NCBI GenBank assembly: GCA_015478665.1
Contig: JADMII010000002.1
Location: forward strand, 124,001-188,000
Length of the DNA stretch: 64,000 nucleotides
Source: Dehalococcoidia bacterium
Lineage (GTDB): Bacteria; Chloroflexota; Dehalococcoidia; DSTF01; JACRBR01
Direction: 5' to 3'
Shown: positions 41,977-47,844 of the stretch, one piece after another
How positions within the stretch are numbered: position 1 is the first letter of the stretch
Layout of the letters: the number at the start of each line of letters is the position of its first letter
The notes under the pieces: generated by a model
Told to the model about the DNA's origin: nothing
The model's input: only the letters and a program-made list of their open reading frames with translations
Database searches by the model: none
Position numbers and translations under genes: made by a program

Positions 41977-43464
41977 CTACGTGGCCGGCGCGCCGTCGCC
42001 CTCCGCCGCGGCGATGTGCCCGAGCGCGGCGATGCCGCCGAGCGCCAGGGCGAACAGCGTCAGGGTGCGCGGCGTGATCATTCCCAGGTCCACCCACGAA
42101 TACATGATGAACATGAAGATGATCGCTCCGAACGCGAAGGCATACGGCTTCATCGGCGTCGAGATCGCCCGCAGCACCTGCATCGAGCGGCAGATCGAAG
42201 CGGCGAAGAGCATCGTCAGCGCGCCGAATCCCAGGATCCCGGCGTCCATCCAGATCCAGAGCACCGAGTTGTGCGGTACCGAATCCCAGAGCGGCCAGTT
42301 CGCGCTCAGATCTGCCACAGGCACGTAGAACCTGTACGGCCGCCCCATCCCGAGCCCGATCACCGGATCGCCCTGGATATTCAGCCGGATGTTCAGCTCT
42401 TCCCGCTTGCGGTACGAGTTCGACGACGCGTCGCGGGCGGAGACCTGACCGCTGCCGACCGCGGAGCGATAGGAGCGCGCCAGCTCGCCGGTGCTGCCGG
42501 TGTTGTTCCACGTCACCGCGATCACCAGGCCCATCGCCAGCAGGCCGAGCGGCACGAGGACGAGGAAGGTGCGCAGCTTCTCGCGAATCAGCACGAGGCA
42601 CAGCACGATGATGCCGCCATCGAGTGCCACGAGGCCGGCGCGCCGGCGCATCACCAGCATCGCCGCCAGCGGCAGCAGCATCAGCGCGATGCACTTCCAC
42701 TCGCGCATGATGTTGCGCGACCACACCAGGCGGGCAGTGAGCAGGACGATCGCAGCGGCGTACAACAGCGAGTCTTCGTGCGCGAAGGCCAGCGCCAGCG
42801 AGACCTTGAGGCTGTACGACGTCGTCGCCACGTCGCCGTAGTACCGGTAGATGTTCTCCACGGAAGCGATGTTCGCGAACGCGACGAACACCCACATCAG
42901 CCGCATCCACTGCTCCCGCCGCGTGAGCAGGTTCGTCAGGAGCAGGTAGAGGACCGGCACGTAGACCAGCCCGCGCAGCTCCTGCCGGAGCGTCGCCATG
43001 TTCGCGCCGCGGGAGATGCCGACGACGGAGGCCAAGGCGATGGCGGCGACGAAGAGCGCGATCGGAAGCAGCAGCGAGCCGGCGCGAAAGCGCACCTCAT
43101 CGTCGTAGATAAGGCGGATCGCCAGTCCCAGGAGCGCCGCGAAGAGGACCAGCTCCACCGGCGTCAGGCTGATGCCGACGGGCGCCAGGGATTTGTACAG
43201 ACGCGCGCCGGCGGCGTAGTTCGGGTCGTTGATGTGGAAGTCGCCGAGAAGCGCCGCGATCATCACCGCGTAGACGCCGCTGATCGGCTTCACCACCGCC
43301 AGCGCGAGGACGACGATGCCCGCGCACACGAGCAGCGCGAGGGCGCCGCCCGCCGTGACGAGCAACAGCGCCAAGGCGACCGCCGCGACGAGCGCGACGG
43401 CGAGCAGGGGCAGGCGGTTGTCCCGCCCGGAGATCGGCCGGGCGACGGCTGCGTATGCGCTCAT
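41977..43464 (-). CDS. O-antigen ligase/polymerase-like membrane protein (Wzy/WaaL superfamily)
   Basis: 495 residues with about 12 predicted membrane segments (LLAVALVAAVALALLLVTAGG, LLLPIALFVAAIALASVVGI and others). A large loop NIQGDPVIGLGMGRPYRFYV and the following PLWDSVPHNSVLWIWMDAG match the O-antigen ligase family, where the loop HNSxL is conserved. It polymerises or transfers lipid-linked glycan on the outer face of the membrane. ATG 43464 overlaps the stop of a small upstream gene (ATGA). It belongs to the Wzz - BY-kinase-like - small protein - ligase unit. Confidence 0.88.
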   Translation of the reverse strand: MSAYAAVARPISGRDNRLPLLAVALVAAVALALLLVTAGGALALLVCAGIVVLALAVVKPISGVYAVMIAALLGDFHINDPNYAAGARLYKSLAPVGISLTPVELVLFAALLGLAIRLIYDDEVRFRAGSLLLPIALFVAAIALASVVGISRGANMATLRQELRGLVYVPVLYLLLTNLLTRREQWMRLMWVFVAFANIASVENIYRYYGDVATTSYSLKVSLALAFAHEDSLLYAAAIVLLTARLVWSRNIMREWKCIALMLLPLAAMLVMRRRAGLVALDGGIIVLCLVLIREKLRTFLVLVPLGLLAMGLVIAVTWNNTGSTGELARSYRSAVGSGQVSARDASSNSYRKREELNIRLNIQGDPVIGLGMGRPYRFYVPVADLSANWPLWDSVPHNSVLWIWMDAGILGFGALTMLFAASICRSMQVLRAISTPMKPYAFAFGAIIFMFIMYSWVDLGMITPRTLTLFALALGGIAALGHIAAAEGDGAPAT

Positions 43465-43607
43465 GACCACGCCGTGGTGCTGACGATGTAGAGCCCGGCC
43501 AGGGAGATCGTCGCGCCGGCGATCAGCAGGTATCCCCAGCCGCCGATGCGACGGGTACACAGCCCGAGCGCGAGGAACACGAGCAGGAACGCCAGGTACA
43601 GCTTCAA
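43461..43607 (-). CDS. 48-residue two-helix membrane protein (previously uncalled)
   Basis: TTG 43607 begins 4 nt after the stop of the BY-kinase-like gene and the frame ends in a TGA that overlaps the ligase ATG. The product begins LKLYLAFLLVFLALGLCT and contains a second hydrophobic segment (YLLIAGATISLAGLYIV), with a charged TRR turn between. Gap-filling position, ATGA coupling and clean hydrophobic profile argue that it is real. No Shine-Dalgarno is obvious, so it is probably translated by coupling. Function unknown; it may be an accessory of the ligase or kinase. Confidence 0.65.
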   Translation of the reverse strand: MKLYLAFLLVFLALGLCTRRIGGWGYLLIAGATISLAGLYIVSTTAWS

Positions 43608-43611
43608 GGCG

Positions 43612-44373
43612 TTACTCGATCGCGAACCGCGACACGCCCAGCAGGCCCGCGATCCAACGCGGGATCCATTCGCGCGTGCCGTTCAGCACGACGCCGCGCA
43701 CGGGCACGTCGCCGGCAGCCTTCAGCGCCTGCGCGGCGTCCTGAATGTGCGTGTGCCCCGCGCGGGCGACCAGCACGAGGCTTTCCGCCTGGTTCGCGAT
43801 CACCGCCGCGTGCGGCGATGTCAGCATCGGCGGCGCGTCGATGATGATCGTCGGGTAGACGCCGTGCAGCGTCTTCATCAGGTCCTGGAACTTCTGGGAG
43901 CGAAGCAGCGGTCCCGGGTTCGCGCACGGGCGGCCGGCCGGCAGCAGCCAGACGTTCTGCATGCGGGTGGCCTGGATGATCGGCTCCAGCTCGACCTCCG
44001 ACGCCAGGTACTCGGCCAGCCCGAAGCTGGCGTCGAGGCGGAAGTCGGCGGCGAGCGTCGGCCGCCGGAGGTCCGTCTCCAGCAGCAGCACGTCGGACCC
44101 CAGGTTACGGGCGGCCGCCGCGGCAATGCCGATCGAAACGGCGCTCTTGCCTTCACCCGTCGTCGCGCTGGAGATCGCCACCGACTGGCTGCCCGCCGCG
44201 CTGGAGATGTCGAGGCAGCGCGCGGCGATCTGGCGGAAGCGCTGTTCGATGACGCCGAAGACCGGCGCCGTCAGGGCCATGTCGTCGATCTGGGCGATCA
44301 GCGGTGTCCACTTCTGCGCCCACACTTCCTCGTCGCGCGCGCTCTCCCACTGCCGGGTCTGCTCCATAGCCAT
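43612..44373 (-). CDS. CpsD/CapB-like BY-kinase-family ATPase
   Basis: 253 residues. Walker A SATTGEGKSAVS, Walker A' DVLLLETDLRRP and Walker B TIIIDAPPMLTS are those of bacterial tyrosine kinases that partner Wzz-type proteins. The tyrosine-rich C-terminal cluster normally autophosphorylated is absent: the protein ends GLLGVSRFAIE. It may act only as an ATPase partner or phosphorylate other proteins. Start ATG 44373 has GGACAGGAC upstream; the preceding Wzz gene ends 29 nt before. Confidence 0.85.
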   Translation of the reverse strand: MAMEQTRQWESARDEEVWAQKWTPLIAQIDDMALTAPVFGVIEQRFRQIAARCLDISSAAGSQSVAISSATTGEGKSAVSIGIAAAAARNLGSDVLLLETDLRRPTLAADFRLDASFGLAEYLASEVELEPIIQATRMQNVWLLPAGRPCANPGPLLRSQKFQDLMKTLHGVYPTIIIDAPPMLTSPHAAVIANQAESLVLVARAGHTHIQDAAQALKAAGDVPVRGVVLNGTREWIPRWIAGLLGVSRFAIE

Positions 44374-44402: not shown

Positions 44403-45386
44403 TTATCGCTGCAATGTGCTGCCGAGCGCCGTGACGGCCAGCCGGTAGAAGTGCTTCGGCCAGCCGCGCTTCTTCAACTTGCTGACATCCGGTACGGAGC
44501 CCAGGAGCAGCAGCCCGGGCAGCGCCTGCAGGTCCTCCGCGACGCGGATGCTGTTGTCGGTGCGCAGCAGCAGCCCGTACAGCCCGGCGCTGAGGCTGAC
44601 CGCCAACAGCAGGCCAGCGACCGGGAAGAGCAGCAGCGACGTCTTCTTGCGGGCATCCGGCCCCGTCGGCTGGCTCGGCGCATCGCGCACCTCGACCGTC
44701 TGGGTACCGGGAGAGCTGACGAGCGCGTTGGAGTCGCGCAGGCTCTTGGTTGCGTCGTTGAGCGCCGTCTGCGCCGTCTGGACGTTCGACGTCAGCGTCG
44801 TCAACTGCGGGTCGAGGCTGCTGCTCGCACGGTAAGACTGAAGCGCCGACTGCGCTGAGTCGAGCTGCTTCTGCGCGCTCTGCTGCTGCTTCGTGTAGAA
44901 GGCGATCGCCTGCTGCAGATCGATGCTCGTGCGGGCCTTCACCTCGGCCGTGAAGCCGGCGACCAGCGCATCGTTGATCGTCTTCGCCTCCGTCGCCGTC
45001 GCCGCCCTGTGGCTGATGTCCACGAGGTGAGGGCCTTCCGCGAGCACCACCGTGCCGTTGCGGACGGCGAACAGCGCGGCGCTCTTCTGCGGCAGCGTAT
45101 CGGTGGGCAAGCCCGCGCGGCGCGCGACATCGAGCGCGAACGAATCGGTCGCGAGGAATTCGGTCAGGTCGCTCGCCCGGTTCTGGGCGGCCGTCTGGTA
45201 CTGGTTGTCGGACGTCGGCAGCGTCGGCACCAGCGGCGACTGCTCGACCCAGACCTTCGACAGCGATGTGTACGTCTGCTTCTGCGTGAAGACTGCCAGC
45301 GCGGCGGCGATCGGCAGGATCACGATGAAGGGCACGAGCAGGAGGTACTTGTATCGCGCTGCGACAATCAGTGGCTTCATCGTCAT
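44403..45386 (-). CDS. Wzz/polysaccharide co-polymerase (chain-length determinant)
   Basis: 327 residues. An N-terminal membrane segment (YLLLVPFIVILPIAAALAV), a long periplasmic region with coiled-coil character (QQQSAQKQLDSAQSALQSYR), and a C-terminal membrane segment preceded by a Pro-rich stretch (RDAPSQPTGPDARKK, then LLLFPVAGLLLAVSLSAG) match the PCP family. It sets polymer length with the ligase/polymerase and works with the ATPase encoded next. ATG 45386 has GGGAGAG upstream. A direct-repeat promoter lies about 60 nt ahead. Confidence 0.88.
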   Translation of the reverse strand: MTMKPLIVAARYKYLLLVPFIVILPIAAALAVFTQKQTYTSLSKVWVEQSPLVPTLPTSDNQYQTAAQNRASDLTEFLATDSFALDVARRAGLPTDTLPQKSAALFAVRNGTVVLAEGPHLVDISHRAATATEAKTINDALVAGFTAEVKARTSIDLQQAIAFYTKQQQSAQKQLDSAQSALQSYRASSSLDPQLTTLTSNVQTAQTALNDATKSLRDSNALVSSPGTQTVEVRDAPSQPTGPDARKKTSLLLFPVAGLLLAVSLSAGLYGLLLRTDNSIRVAEDLQALPGLLLLGSVPDVSKLKKRGWPKHFYRLAVTALGSTLQR

Positions 45387-45518: not shown

Positions 45519-46202
45519 TCAGTACGCTCCGCGTGTCGAGATCACCGCAGGCAGCGTCTTGAGGAGGATCACGAGGTCGCGCATCAGCGTCCAGTCCTCG
45601 ATGTAGCTGATGTCAAGGGCGACCATCTCGTCGAACGGCAGCGTGCTCCGCCCGCTCACCTGCCAGAGGCCGGTGAGGCCGGGGCGCGTCAGCAGCCGCC
45701 GCAGTTGATGCCGGCTGTAGTTCTGCACCTCGTGCGGCAGCGGCGGACGCGGCCCGACCAGGCTCATGTCGCCGCGCACGACGTTGATCAGCTGCGGCAC
45801 CTCGTCGACGCTTAGCTTGCGCAGCCAGCGCCCGACCCGCGTCATCCGCGGGTCGTTCCGCATCTTGAAGATCGGTCCCGCTTGCTCGTTGAACGCCGTC
45901 AGCTCGGCGATGCGCGCGTGCGCGTCCTCGCACATCGTCCGGAACTTGTACATGCGGAAAATGCGCCCGTTCTTGCCGACGCGTGGCTGCGTGATCAGCG
46001 GGGCGCCGCGCGAGTCGAGCCGGATCAGCGCCGCGACGACTGCTGCCGGCAGGCAGAGCAGCGCCAGCAGCACCATGCCGCCCGCGACGTCGAGGGCGCG
46101 CTTGCCGAGGCGCTGGATGCGCTTCTCGGCGTCCGCCGCCGTCGCCAGCGATGTTTCGTCCAGCGCGCGATGCGCTTCGAGTTCCTGCGGTAGCGTAGCC
46201 AA
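45519..46202 (-). CDS. Polyprenyl-phosphate sugar-1-phosphate transferase (priming glycosyltransferase)
   Basis: 227 residues, the minimal catalytic form with a single N-terminal hydrophobic segment (VAGGMVLLALLCLPAAVVAAL). Signature blocks are PRVGKNGRIFRMYKFRTM, RVGRWLRKLSVDEVPQLINV and GDMSLVGPRPPLPHEV, which include the DE and PRP residues of the family. It starts glycan assembly by loading the first sugar phosphate onto undecaprenyl phosphate. Start TTG 46202 is chosen for GGGAG upstream and because the region before it is non-coding. It is preceded by the clearest direct-repeat promoter. Confidence 0.9.
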   Translation of the reverse strand: MATLPQELEAHRALDETSLATAADAEKRIQRLGKRALDVAGGMVLLALLCLPAAVVAALIRLDSRGAPLITQPRVGKNGRIFRMYKFRTMCEDAHARIAELTAFNEQAGPIFKMRNDPRMTRVGRWLRKLSVDEVPQLINVVRGDMSLVGPRPPLPHEVQNYSRHQLRRLLTRPGLTGLWQVSGRSTLPFDEMVALDISYIEDWTLMRDLVILLKTLPAVISTRGAY

Positions 46203-46247
46203 GGGCGAATCTCCCGGCCGACAGCCTGAATCGGAGGTTTCCCTTGT

Positions 46248-46280
46248 GTTGTATGAGAGCCGAGTTGAGTGAGGGTTGAG
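46248..46280 (-). promoter_or_regulatory. 11-bp-period direct repeat plus -10 (site c)
   Basis: Minus strand: CTCAAC-CCTCA-CTCAAC (46280 to 46264), 10 nt, then TACAAC (46253 to 46248). About 46 nt before TTG 46202 of the priming transferase. The best conserved copy. Confidence 0.65.
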
Positions 46281-46287
46281 TGCGCGT

Positions 46288-47010
46288 CTAAGACGCGTTC
46301 GATCGGGCGCCACCACTGACGGCGAGCGGCGGCTCCGCCTCCTCGTCGCCGCGGAGGATGTAGCCGACGTTCGGCACGGCGGTGATCGAAAGCTCGATGC
46401 CGTTCGCGGCGAGCTTCTGGCGGATGTGCGAGAGGTGCGTCTTCAGCACGTTGCTGTCGCCGCCCTCATCGGACCAGACGTAGCGCAGGAGGCGGTCGGT
46501 CGGCGTCACGCGCCCGAAGTGCGATGCCAGGCAGTAGAGGATGCGGAACTCGATCCGGGTCAGGTTCAGCAGCCCGTCCTCGTAGGTGACGCTCCAGGTA
46601 TCGGGATTGATCCGCAGGCCGCCGAGCACCAGCTCGCTCGAGGCGACGTGCGACGCGACGCGGCGCGCGACGGCGTTCACCCGCAGCACGAGCTGACGGA
46701 ACGAGAACGGCTTCACGACATAATCATCGGCGCCGGCGGAGAACGCTTCGACCATGGCGGCCTCATCGCCGCGTCCCGTCACGACGATCACCGGCGTGTC
46801 GGCGTACTCTCGGATCTTGCGGAGCACGTCGATGCCGTTCGGCTCGGGCAGCGCCAAGTCGAGCAGGACGACGTCCGGGCGCTCGTCCTTGTGGTGCTGC
46901 AGCGCCTGTGCGCCGGAAAATGCGAGGATCACCGAGAAGCCCTGCCGCCGCAGCGCGAACGCCGTCACGTCGCTGAGGTCCACGTCGTCTTCGGTCAGGA
47001 GGATCTTCAT
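46288..47010 (-). CDS. OmpR-family response regulator (first of two)
   Basis: 240 residues. Receiver with TEDDVDLS, phospho-Asp in VVLLDLALPEPNG, Thr in VVTGRG and Lys in YVVKPFSF; winged-helix output with LLNLTRIEFRILYCLASH and SNVLKTHLSHIRQKL, ending TAVPNVGYILRG. Intact, so likely phosphorylated. Located directly upstream of the polysaccharide genes and a candidate to bind the 11-bp repeats. Its own gap carries a weaker repeat. Confidence 0.92.
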   Translation of the reverse strand: MKILLTEDDVDLSDVTAFALRRQGFSVILAFSGAQALQHHKDERPDVVLLDLALPEPNGIDVLRKIREYADTPVIVVTGRGDEAAMVEAFSAGADDYVVKPFSFRQLVLRVNAVARRVASHVASSELVLGGLRINPDTWSVTYEDGLLNLTRIEFRILYCLASHFGRVTPTDRLLRYVWSDEGGDSNVLKTHLSHIRQKLAANGIELSITAVPNVGYILRGDEEAEPPLAVSGGARSNAS

Positions 47011-47069
47011 GTCAATCCCTGCATCGGCGGTTGCTACCTGCCACCGTCGCCGCTCCGGGTGAAACGAGA

Positions 47070-47086
47070 GTTGAAGCGCCGTCGAG
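47070..47086 (-). promoter_or_regulatory. Weaker 11-bp-period repeat (site d)
   Basis: Minus strand: CTCGAC-GGCGC-TTCAAC (47086 to 47070), 60 nt upstream of the response regulator start. No convincing -10 follows at the usual distance. Confidence 0.35.
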
Positions 47087-47124
47087 AAGCGGCGGGGAAA
47101 CGCCGCACGATGTGATGCCGGTGG

Positions 47125-47844
47125 TCAAGCGGAATGCTTCTCGGGGACCGCGTGCGCGGCGCCCCTCGCCGTGAGCCGGTAACCCAGCCCGGCGATCGTG
47201 TGGATGTAGAGTGGCGCGCCGGCGTCCGGCTCGATCTTCCGGCGCAGGTTGCGGATATGGCTCTTGGCCATCGATGCGCTCTCGACGTCCTGCAGGCCCC
47301 AGATGCGCCGCGTGAGCTCCTGATGCGTAACGACTTCGCCCTCGTGCAGCGCCAGCTCGTAGAGCAGCCGGAACTCGATCTTCGTCAGGCGCACGGCGCG
47401 CTCGCGGACGCTGACGGAATGGAGGCCGACGTCGAGGCGGATATCGCCGAGCTCGAGGGCGCGGCTGCGGACGGTGCCGGTCTGGGGCGCGGCGCGACGC
47501 ATCACGGCTTCGACGCGGGCGACGAGTTGCGTGGGGCTGAATGGCTTCGTGACATAATCATCGGCGCCGAGGCGCAGGCCGCGGACGACGTCTTCATCGC
47601 TGCTGCAGCCGGTGAGCATGATCACCGGCATCGCCGTGGAGGTGCGGATCTGGTGCAACACCTGCCAGCCGTCGACGTGCGGCAGCGTGACGTCGAGGAT
47701 CACGAGGCTTGGGGCGCGGGACTTGAGCAGGCGCAGCGCGGCCATCCCGTCGTACGCCGTAATCACGTCGTACCCGCTGCGCCGCAGCGTGTAGCCGACG
47801 ATGTCGGCCAGATCCTGTTCGTCTTCGACGAGGAGAATTGCCAT
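47125..47844 (-). CDS. OmpR-family response regulator (second)
   Basis: 239 residues. Receiver with VEDEQDLA, phospho-Asp in LVILDVTLPHVDG, Thr in MLTGCS and Lys in YVTKPFSP; DNA-binding domain with RAVRLTKIEFRLLYELA and SMAKSHIRNLRRKIEP. Intact. Its ATG follows the stop codon of the LuxR-type gene with no gap (TAGATG), so the two are co-translated. Similar in plan to the regulator at 46288 but clearly not a recent copy. Confidence 0.92.
   Translation of the reverse strand: MAILLVEDEQDLADIVGYTLRRSGYDVITAYDGMAALRLLKSRAPSLVILDVTLPHVDGWQVLHQIRTSTAMPVIMLTGCSSDEDVVRGLRLGADDYVTKPFSPTQLVARVEAVMRRAAPQTGTVRSRALELGDIRLDVGLHSVSVRERAVRLTKIEFRLLYELALHEGEVVTHQELTRRIWGLQDVESASMAKSHIRNLRRKIEPDAGAPLYIHTIAGLGYRLTARGAAHAVPEKHSA

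Follow-up and report, generated by a model that had tools for sequence, protein, structure and literature searches.

A 48-residue membrane protein encoded between a BY-kinase-like ATPase and a Wzy polymerase is probably an undescribed small part of the machine building long surface sugars

Introduction

Small helices supporting polytopic glycan-handling enzymes are known from several systems, such as Ost4 of the oligosaccharyltransferase and the FtsQLB regulators of the SEDS polymerase, and small membrane proteins often regulate the stability of larger ones. In Gram-positive bacteria, CapB-type kinases are anchored or activated by the tail of the co-polymerase. The assembly of Wzy polymerases and the control of chain length remain open questions. 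According to excerpts of two publications, Wzy and Wzz form complexes (PMC12004945, PMC10030265), with TM2 of Wzz being implicated in the contact with Wzy (PMC12004945). A word search of the former, a 2025 review on Wzy, gave no hit for ‘small protein’, ‘accessory’, ‘subunit’ or ‘RmpD’. RmpD of Klebsiella pneumoniae is a small membrane protein of 49–58 aa which, as described in excerpts of PMC10294653, binds Wzc and leads to longer and more uniform capsule chains; it is optional, located on mobile elements and, in the same excerpts, reported only from K. pneumoniae.

Here, we describe a small gene in a 64 000 nt stretch of DNA from a Dehalococcoidia bacterium (assembly GCA_015478665.1, contig JADMII010000002.1, positions 124 001 to 188 000), referred to as the window. 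Its predicted product resembles RmpD, as far as the latter is described in the same excerpts (PMC10294653), in size, inner-membrane location, a conserved basic cytoplasmic segment and its setting in a Wzy-dependent pathway with a co-polymerase/BY-kinase. However, RmpD combines a single helix at its N-terminus with a basic cytoplasmic domain at its C-terminus, whereas the protein described here is built of two helices joined by a basic turn; the RmpD gene belongs to the rmpADC operon, whereas the small gene is located between a BY-kinase-like ATPase gene and a Wzy polymerase gene; and RmpD is optional, while the small protein belongs to the core cassette of three phyla. By architecture, i.e. 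set apart by description and not by sequence, it is not a member of the RmpD family. Regardless, it is tempting to speculate that it works somewhat like RmpD, which by analogy would be its nearest working analogue.

As a two-helix membrane protein in a Wzy setting, it also recalls the Wzz/PCP-2b co-polymerases. These, however, carry a large extracytoplasmic domain between their helices, whereas the small protein has a short turn on the opposite, presumably cytoplasmic side, and the cassette has a PCP gene of its own in addition to the small gene. The likeness to Ost4 and FtsQLB, i.e. small membrane helices aiding a polytopic glycan enzyme, is meant as an analogy only and not as a relation in sequence or fold.

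Results

The small frame and its neighbours

The frame is located on the minus strand at positions 43461..43607 of the window, with a TTG start at 43607 and a TGA stop, and encodes a 48-aa protein with two hydrophobic stretches flanking CTRRIGGW (MKLYLAFLLVFLALGLCTRRIGGWGYLLIAGATISLAGLYIVSTTAWS); its assignment as a two-helix membrane protein is based on homologues, selection and topology. The TAA of the ATPase gene (43614–43612) is followed by 4 nt and then by the TTG of the small frame, the TGA of which (43463–43461) forms an ATGA overlap with the ATG of the polymerase gene (43464–43462). The geometry given in a first-pass annotation, i.e. TTG start, 48 aa, two hydrophobic helices, 4 nt gap and ATGA overlap, proved exact throughout; that annotation named no strand. 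No clear ribosome-binding site was seen by eye before the TTG, and the genome harbours one copy of the small protein.

Directly upstream lies the gene of a BY-kinase-like P-loop ATPase (43612..44367, minus strand), which matched AAA_31 (Pfam) and exceeded the cut-off of TIGR01007 eps_fam (115.8 bits; cut-off 108.05), its match to TIGR03018 being below the cut-off. It keeps the Walker A lysine (GEGKS) and ends with LLGVSRFAIE, without a tyrosine-rich tail. Further upstream on the same strand are a Wzz/PCP-like polysaccharide co-polymerase (44403..45386; TIGR03007, 1.5e-17, below cut-off), for which Pfam gave nothing useful, and a polyprenyl glycosylphosphotransferase, i.e. the initiating sugar transferase (45519..46316; Bac_transf, 8.2e-61, and NCBIfam). 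Glycosyltransferases, aminotransferases, an oxidoreductase and an epimerase surround the cassette. A tandem pair of OmpR-type response regulators adjoins it (46288–47844), with a LuxR-like frame, recognized by eye, alongside; a dedicated control of the polysaccharide is possible.

The downstream gene (41977..43464, minus strand) encodes a 495-aa polymerase/ligase with a match to Pfam Wzy_C above the cut-off (37.1 bits; cut-off 31.7). The label ‘O-antigen ligase’ used in the first-pass annotation follows the Pfam name, while the best full-length NCBIfam match is the exopolysaccharide repeat-unit polymerase (Wzy_EPS, 2.2e-22, below cut-off), a label that suits the cassette better. A predicted model of the polymerase (pTM 0.75) had the ligase WaaL as its first match (7tpg, E 2.9e-5, TM 0.51/0.61), followed by an FtsW complex and a RodA-type synthase entry, matches that can be set beside the analogy to SEDS regulators.

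Conservation in Chloroflexota

Both genomes of the same genus (G001 and G002) harbour an ATG-started 47-aa homologue exactly between the ATPase and the polymerase genes, with 32 % identity to the window protein over the alignment and 44 % over the matched part, and a more distant genome of the same class (G041) has a 48-aa small frame between the same two genes. In a single-sequence search with the 48-aa protein against 60 genomes, its own included, the only real matches were the 73-codon frames of G001 and G002, recognized as such by position; most matches were false ones to membrane proteins.

Searching 400 Chloroflexota genomes with a polymerase profile yielded 69 polymerase places in 67 genomes, and each of these places was read. 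A two-helix frame of 41–50 aa, called by length and hydropathy and hence independently of any small-protein profile, was present in the cassette at 64 of these 69 places, i.e. 64 of the 67 readable ones, the other two (L068 of G221 and L091 of G266) being cut by contig ends. Presence at L084 was completed by L229, the place in G283 was read separately, and for the seven places on the same contigs as L034, L036, L037, L038, L040, L041 and the window the earlier frame reading was used. At the three places without a small frame (G286, G094 and G378), matches to the co-polymerase and the ATPase were also absent from the 7–8 kb read. Among 17 named loci obtained by polymerase profile search of genome contigs, 12 (L032–L043, i.e. 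nine Chloroflexota, one Acidimicrobiales, one Ilumatobacteraceae and one Chthonomonadales) contained a two-helix frame of 44–50 aa upstream of the polymerase, separated from it in L043 by one acyltransferase-like gene; in L034, L036, L040 and L041 the open frame extends into the gene before it, and the small protein was identified by reading the frames. No small frame was found in the remaining five (L044–L048, from Polyangiaceae, Myxococcales, Sorangium and Deltaproteobacteria).

The first-pass annotation had proposed to look for a short frame at the same position in related loci, which was found in the two genomes of the same genus as well as throughout the phylum; the lack of conservation, with stop codons or frameshifts in close relatives, that it had named as speaking against the gene was checked for, and the frame is conserved. 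This conservation settles that the 48-residue frame is a real gene. The suggestion in the first-pass annotation that a TTG start hides the gene holds for this copy and one other only, as the 69 aligned members start with ATG (56), GTG (11) or TTG (2). The 67 members with ATG or GTG may well be picked up by standard gene prediction and appear as hypothetical proteins.

Architecture, selection and family libraries

The 69 aligned members are 41–50 aa long (median 47). All possess two hydrophobic stretches, the best 14-aa windows of which have mean hydropathies no lower than 1.97 and 1.49, and a basic segment between them, and in 59 a glycine closes helix 1. Lysine and arginine residues average 2.70 in the turn versus 0.42 and 0.45 at the ends, the turn exceeding both ends summed in 64 members and equalling them in five. 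By the positive-inside rule, this charge pattern indicates a predicted hairpin with both ends outside and the basic turn in the cytoplasm. An AlphaFold model placed helices at residues 2–18 and 25–47 with low confidence (pLDDT 70, pTM 0.35). The summed pN/pS was 0.25 over 45 close pairs in eight groups, pairs within a group not being independent, and single dN/dS values of close pairs ranged from 0 to 0.56 where computable; judged by these ratios, the members show purifying selection at the amino-acid level.

No family in Pfam, NCBIfam or PHROGs covers the 69 members, with only isolated matches of one or two of them (best E values 0.0019, 0.0033 and 0.00033, respectively, the PHROGs entry being unnamed). 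Among solved structures there was no convincing match, the best being a receptor transmembrane segment (E 0.013). In the loci inspected by eye, no fusion to the polymerase or the ATPase was seen, and the open-licence PMC literature searched gave no account of a protein of this kind. The members form an undescribed family of 41–52 aa inner-membrane hairpins, arranged as TM1, glycine, basic turn, TM2 and an aromatic end.

Distribution in Chloroflexota and other phyla

A profile was built from the 69 members (window, L030, L032–L043 and 55 more). Among the matches listed in the 400 Chloroflexota genomes, all with E ≤1.1e-5 fall in polymerase-bearing genomes when compared by eye, a test that is partly circular because most matching members were in the profile. 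Three places were found by the profile only (G224:C62, G221:C396 and G283:C100), each directly behind an ATPase gene. A match in G444 (E 1.2e-5) was rejected since it sits inside a frame of more than 1000 codons encoding a long membrane protein, and weaker listed matches were, known members excepted, mostly located in long frames. The small frame of L154 was missed by the profile and found by eye and with the hydropathy caller.

In Actinobacteriota, the phylum of the L039 genome, nine of 246 genomes had a match in the polymerase search. All three strong matches, one of which is the seed genome, have the small frame; among the six weak ones, none was found in the five that could be oriented, the sixth being L162. 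In Armatimonadota, the phylum of the L043 genome, the polymerase was present at 34 places in 32 of 201 genomes. Within up to 1.5 kb upstream, nine of 30 loci showed the frame, three of the 30 stretches beginning at the polymerase itself; hits in L177 and L190 were unlike the family and left out of this count. When 16 loci, a non-random sample partly chosen for an already visible frame, were read further upstream, 13 had a frame of normal length, two (L222 and L224) a longer one and one (L226) none. By eye, the order in this phylum is co-polymerase, ATPase, GT2, small gene, often a glycosidase-like or acyltransferase-like gene, and polymerase, so that another gene often separates the small gene from the polymerase gene. 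The frames of L222 (around 1915–2190) and L224 (reverse strand, same gap) are about twice the usual length, with extra hydrophobic sequence after the hairpin, possibly an extension or duplication.

In Myxococcota, the phylum of the L048 genome (146 genomes, 76 with a match), no small frame was found in the 20 loci read; caller hits in L193 and L204 look like co-polymerase tails and not like small genes. In L194 and L210 the co-polymerase is located directly upstream of the polymerase, yet the small protein is absent, and hence not every such machine needs it. Searching plasmids by tblastn with one member (E limit 10) and with one polymerase gave no match to either. The presence of the family in scattered Actinobacteriota and many Armatimonadota (L039, L042 and L043) suggests common descent or transfer of the cassette.

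Gene order, co-variation and ATPase decay

The general order of the cassette is sugar transferase, co-polymerase, BY-kinase-like ATPase, optionally a GT2 or glycosidase gene, small gene, optionally a glycosidase or acyltransferase gene, and Wzy polymerase. The small gene starts no more than 60 nt from the ATPase stop codon in 58 of 69 members, overlapping in six of these. Rearranged orders include ATPase–PCP–small–polymerase (L087), PCP–small–polymerase (L041), ATPase–small–glycosidase–polymerase (L229/L084) and ATPase–glycosidase–small–polymerase (L233/L070); throughout such rearrangements (L041, L087, L229, L233, L043 and Armatimonadota), the small gene stays inside the cassette. In L229, L233, L084 and L091 (Chloroflexota) and L222–L228 (Armatimonadota), the gene of a large glycoside hydrolase-like protein, recognized by eye, is inserted between those of the ATPase and the polymerase, either before or after the small frame.

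Distances between small proteins track those of the polymerase somewhat better than those of the ATPase (partial r 0.39 versus 0.17; for nearer pairs, distance correlation 0.78 versus 0.16), with a bootstrapped difference between the two correlations of 0.05–0.39 (5–95 %). With equal numbers of columns (208), the values were 0.35 for the polymerase versus 0.22 for the ATPase, and single quarters of the polymerase correlate no better than the whole ATPase. After these controls, the co-evolution signal between small protein and polymerase appears weak.

Among 57 ATPases from cassettes with the small protein, 31 no longer carry the Walker A lysine but valine (23), arginine (5), threonine, serine or alanine (one each), mostly as GEGVT/S; as this set was chosen for the presence of the small protein, the count shows only that the latter does not vanish when the kinase decays. 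A C-terminal tyrosine cluster, the site of autophosphorylation in BY-kinases, was absent from all 58 ATPases inspected, the last 30 residues containing no tyrosine in 45 and one in 13. Since the small protein is retained where the neighbouring ‘kinase’ has lost the Walker A lysine, it is unlikely to serve kinase catalysis; the absence of tyrosine clusters points the same way. Relatives of the ATPase, e.g. in L035, L037, L038 and L052–L067, point to a widespread pseudokinase inside Wzy cassettes.

Discussion

We consider it rather probable, if far from assured, that the small protein represents an undescribed hairpin family which belongs to the core of one type of Wzy-dependent exopolysaccharide cassette and acts by packing against the polymerase. 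Most likely, it serves, in a structural or regulatory role, as a subunit of the complex of Wzy polymerase and co-polymerase, its presumed partner. Within the membrane it would lie against the polymerase, either in or next to the ring of the co-polymerase, while its basic cytoplasmic turn might touch the ATPase or the co-polymerase tail; in this way it could help to assemble or hold the complex and thereby influence chain length. The choice of partner and the influence on chain length are what we infer. In favour of this reading are the conservation of the frame within the cassette, also when the gene order changes, its joint absence with co-polymerase and ATPase at three places, purifying selection, the charge pattern, the frequent loss of the Walker A lysine and the somewhat closer correlation with polymerase distances. 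Against it stand the weakness of the co-evolution signal, the genes that often separate small gene and polymerase in Armatimonadota, the Myxococcota loci L194 and L210 and the Armatimonadota locus L226, which lack the small protein, the low confidence of its AlphaFold model and the want of a clear ribosome-binding site in the window. The first-pass annotation had suggested an accessory subunit of the glycan polymerization machinery, of which the real gene and its place in the cassette are borne out by conservation, while binding to the polymerase is a presumption. A bolder version, somewhat doubtful in our view, would make an approximately 45-residue hairpin the obligatory third subunit of the Wzy machines of Chloroflexota, Armatimonadota and some Actinobacteriota, replacing kinase-based control: in cassettes whose BY-kinase has decayed into a pseudokinase, hairpin and co-polymerase would together keep the polymerase in place and determine chain length with no need for phosphorylation.

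A chance open frame in a GC-rich gap, without any gene, can practically be dismissed. Of 5000 dinucleotide-preserving shuffles of the 154 nt stretch, 96.9 % contained an open frame of at least 38 codons, counted without requiring a start codon, and therefore the open frame at this locus is on its own no evidence. However, an open frame with a mean hydropathy of at least 0.9 occurred in only 0.54 %, so that hydrophobicity is some evidence for a gene; the real evidence is conservation, and a small frame at 64 of 67 readable Chloroflexota places, under apparent selection, already refutes chance. It is also very improbable that translation of the frame is merely a coupling device by which ribosomes pass from the ATPase gene on to that of the polymerase, with a product of little importance: the tight spacing and the ATGA overlap in the window would fit, but amino-acid-level purifying selection, constant topology and charge, and profile-level conservation across phyla argue against it, as do the other genes between small gene and polymerase in several loci.

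The small protein might instead anchor the soluble BY-kinase-like ATPase to the membrane or activate it, touching the polymerase only indirectly. The short distance to the ATPase stop codon (≤60 nt in 58 of 69, six overlapping) and a basic turn facing the cytoplasm, where the ATPase is located, are in favour of this, and Wzc, to which the known small partner RmpD binds according to the excerpts, is a kinase (PMC10294653). We nevertheless regard it as unlikely, considering that the Walker A lysine is gone in 31 of 57 ATPases, that L041, L233 and L043 possess the small protein without an adjacent ATPase, and that the Armatimonadota small gene stands behind GT2. Less probable still is an assembly or quality-control factor, e.g. 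one shielding the polymerase from a membrane protease, in place of a lasting subunit, a reading for which the general role of small membrane proteins in the stability of larger ones can be cited and which the present observations would fit as well as they fit a subunit.

Under the preferred reading of a polymerase/co-polymerase subunit, a tiny component conserved in three phyla, and kept even in cassettes whose kinase no longer has the catalytic lysine, would give direct access to the assembly of the polymerase/co-polymerase complex and be a reminder that small frames within core operons continue to be missed. Within the open-licence PMC literature searched, the protein is an undescribed, new small component of a known machine and, conserved in three bacterial groups inside the gene set for long surface sugars, it is probably an undescribed part of the machine that builds them.
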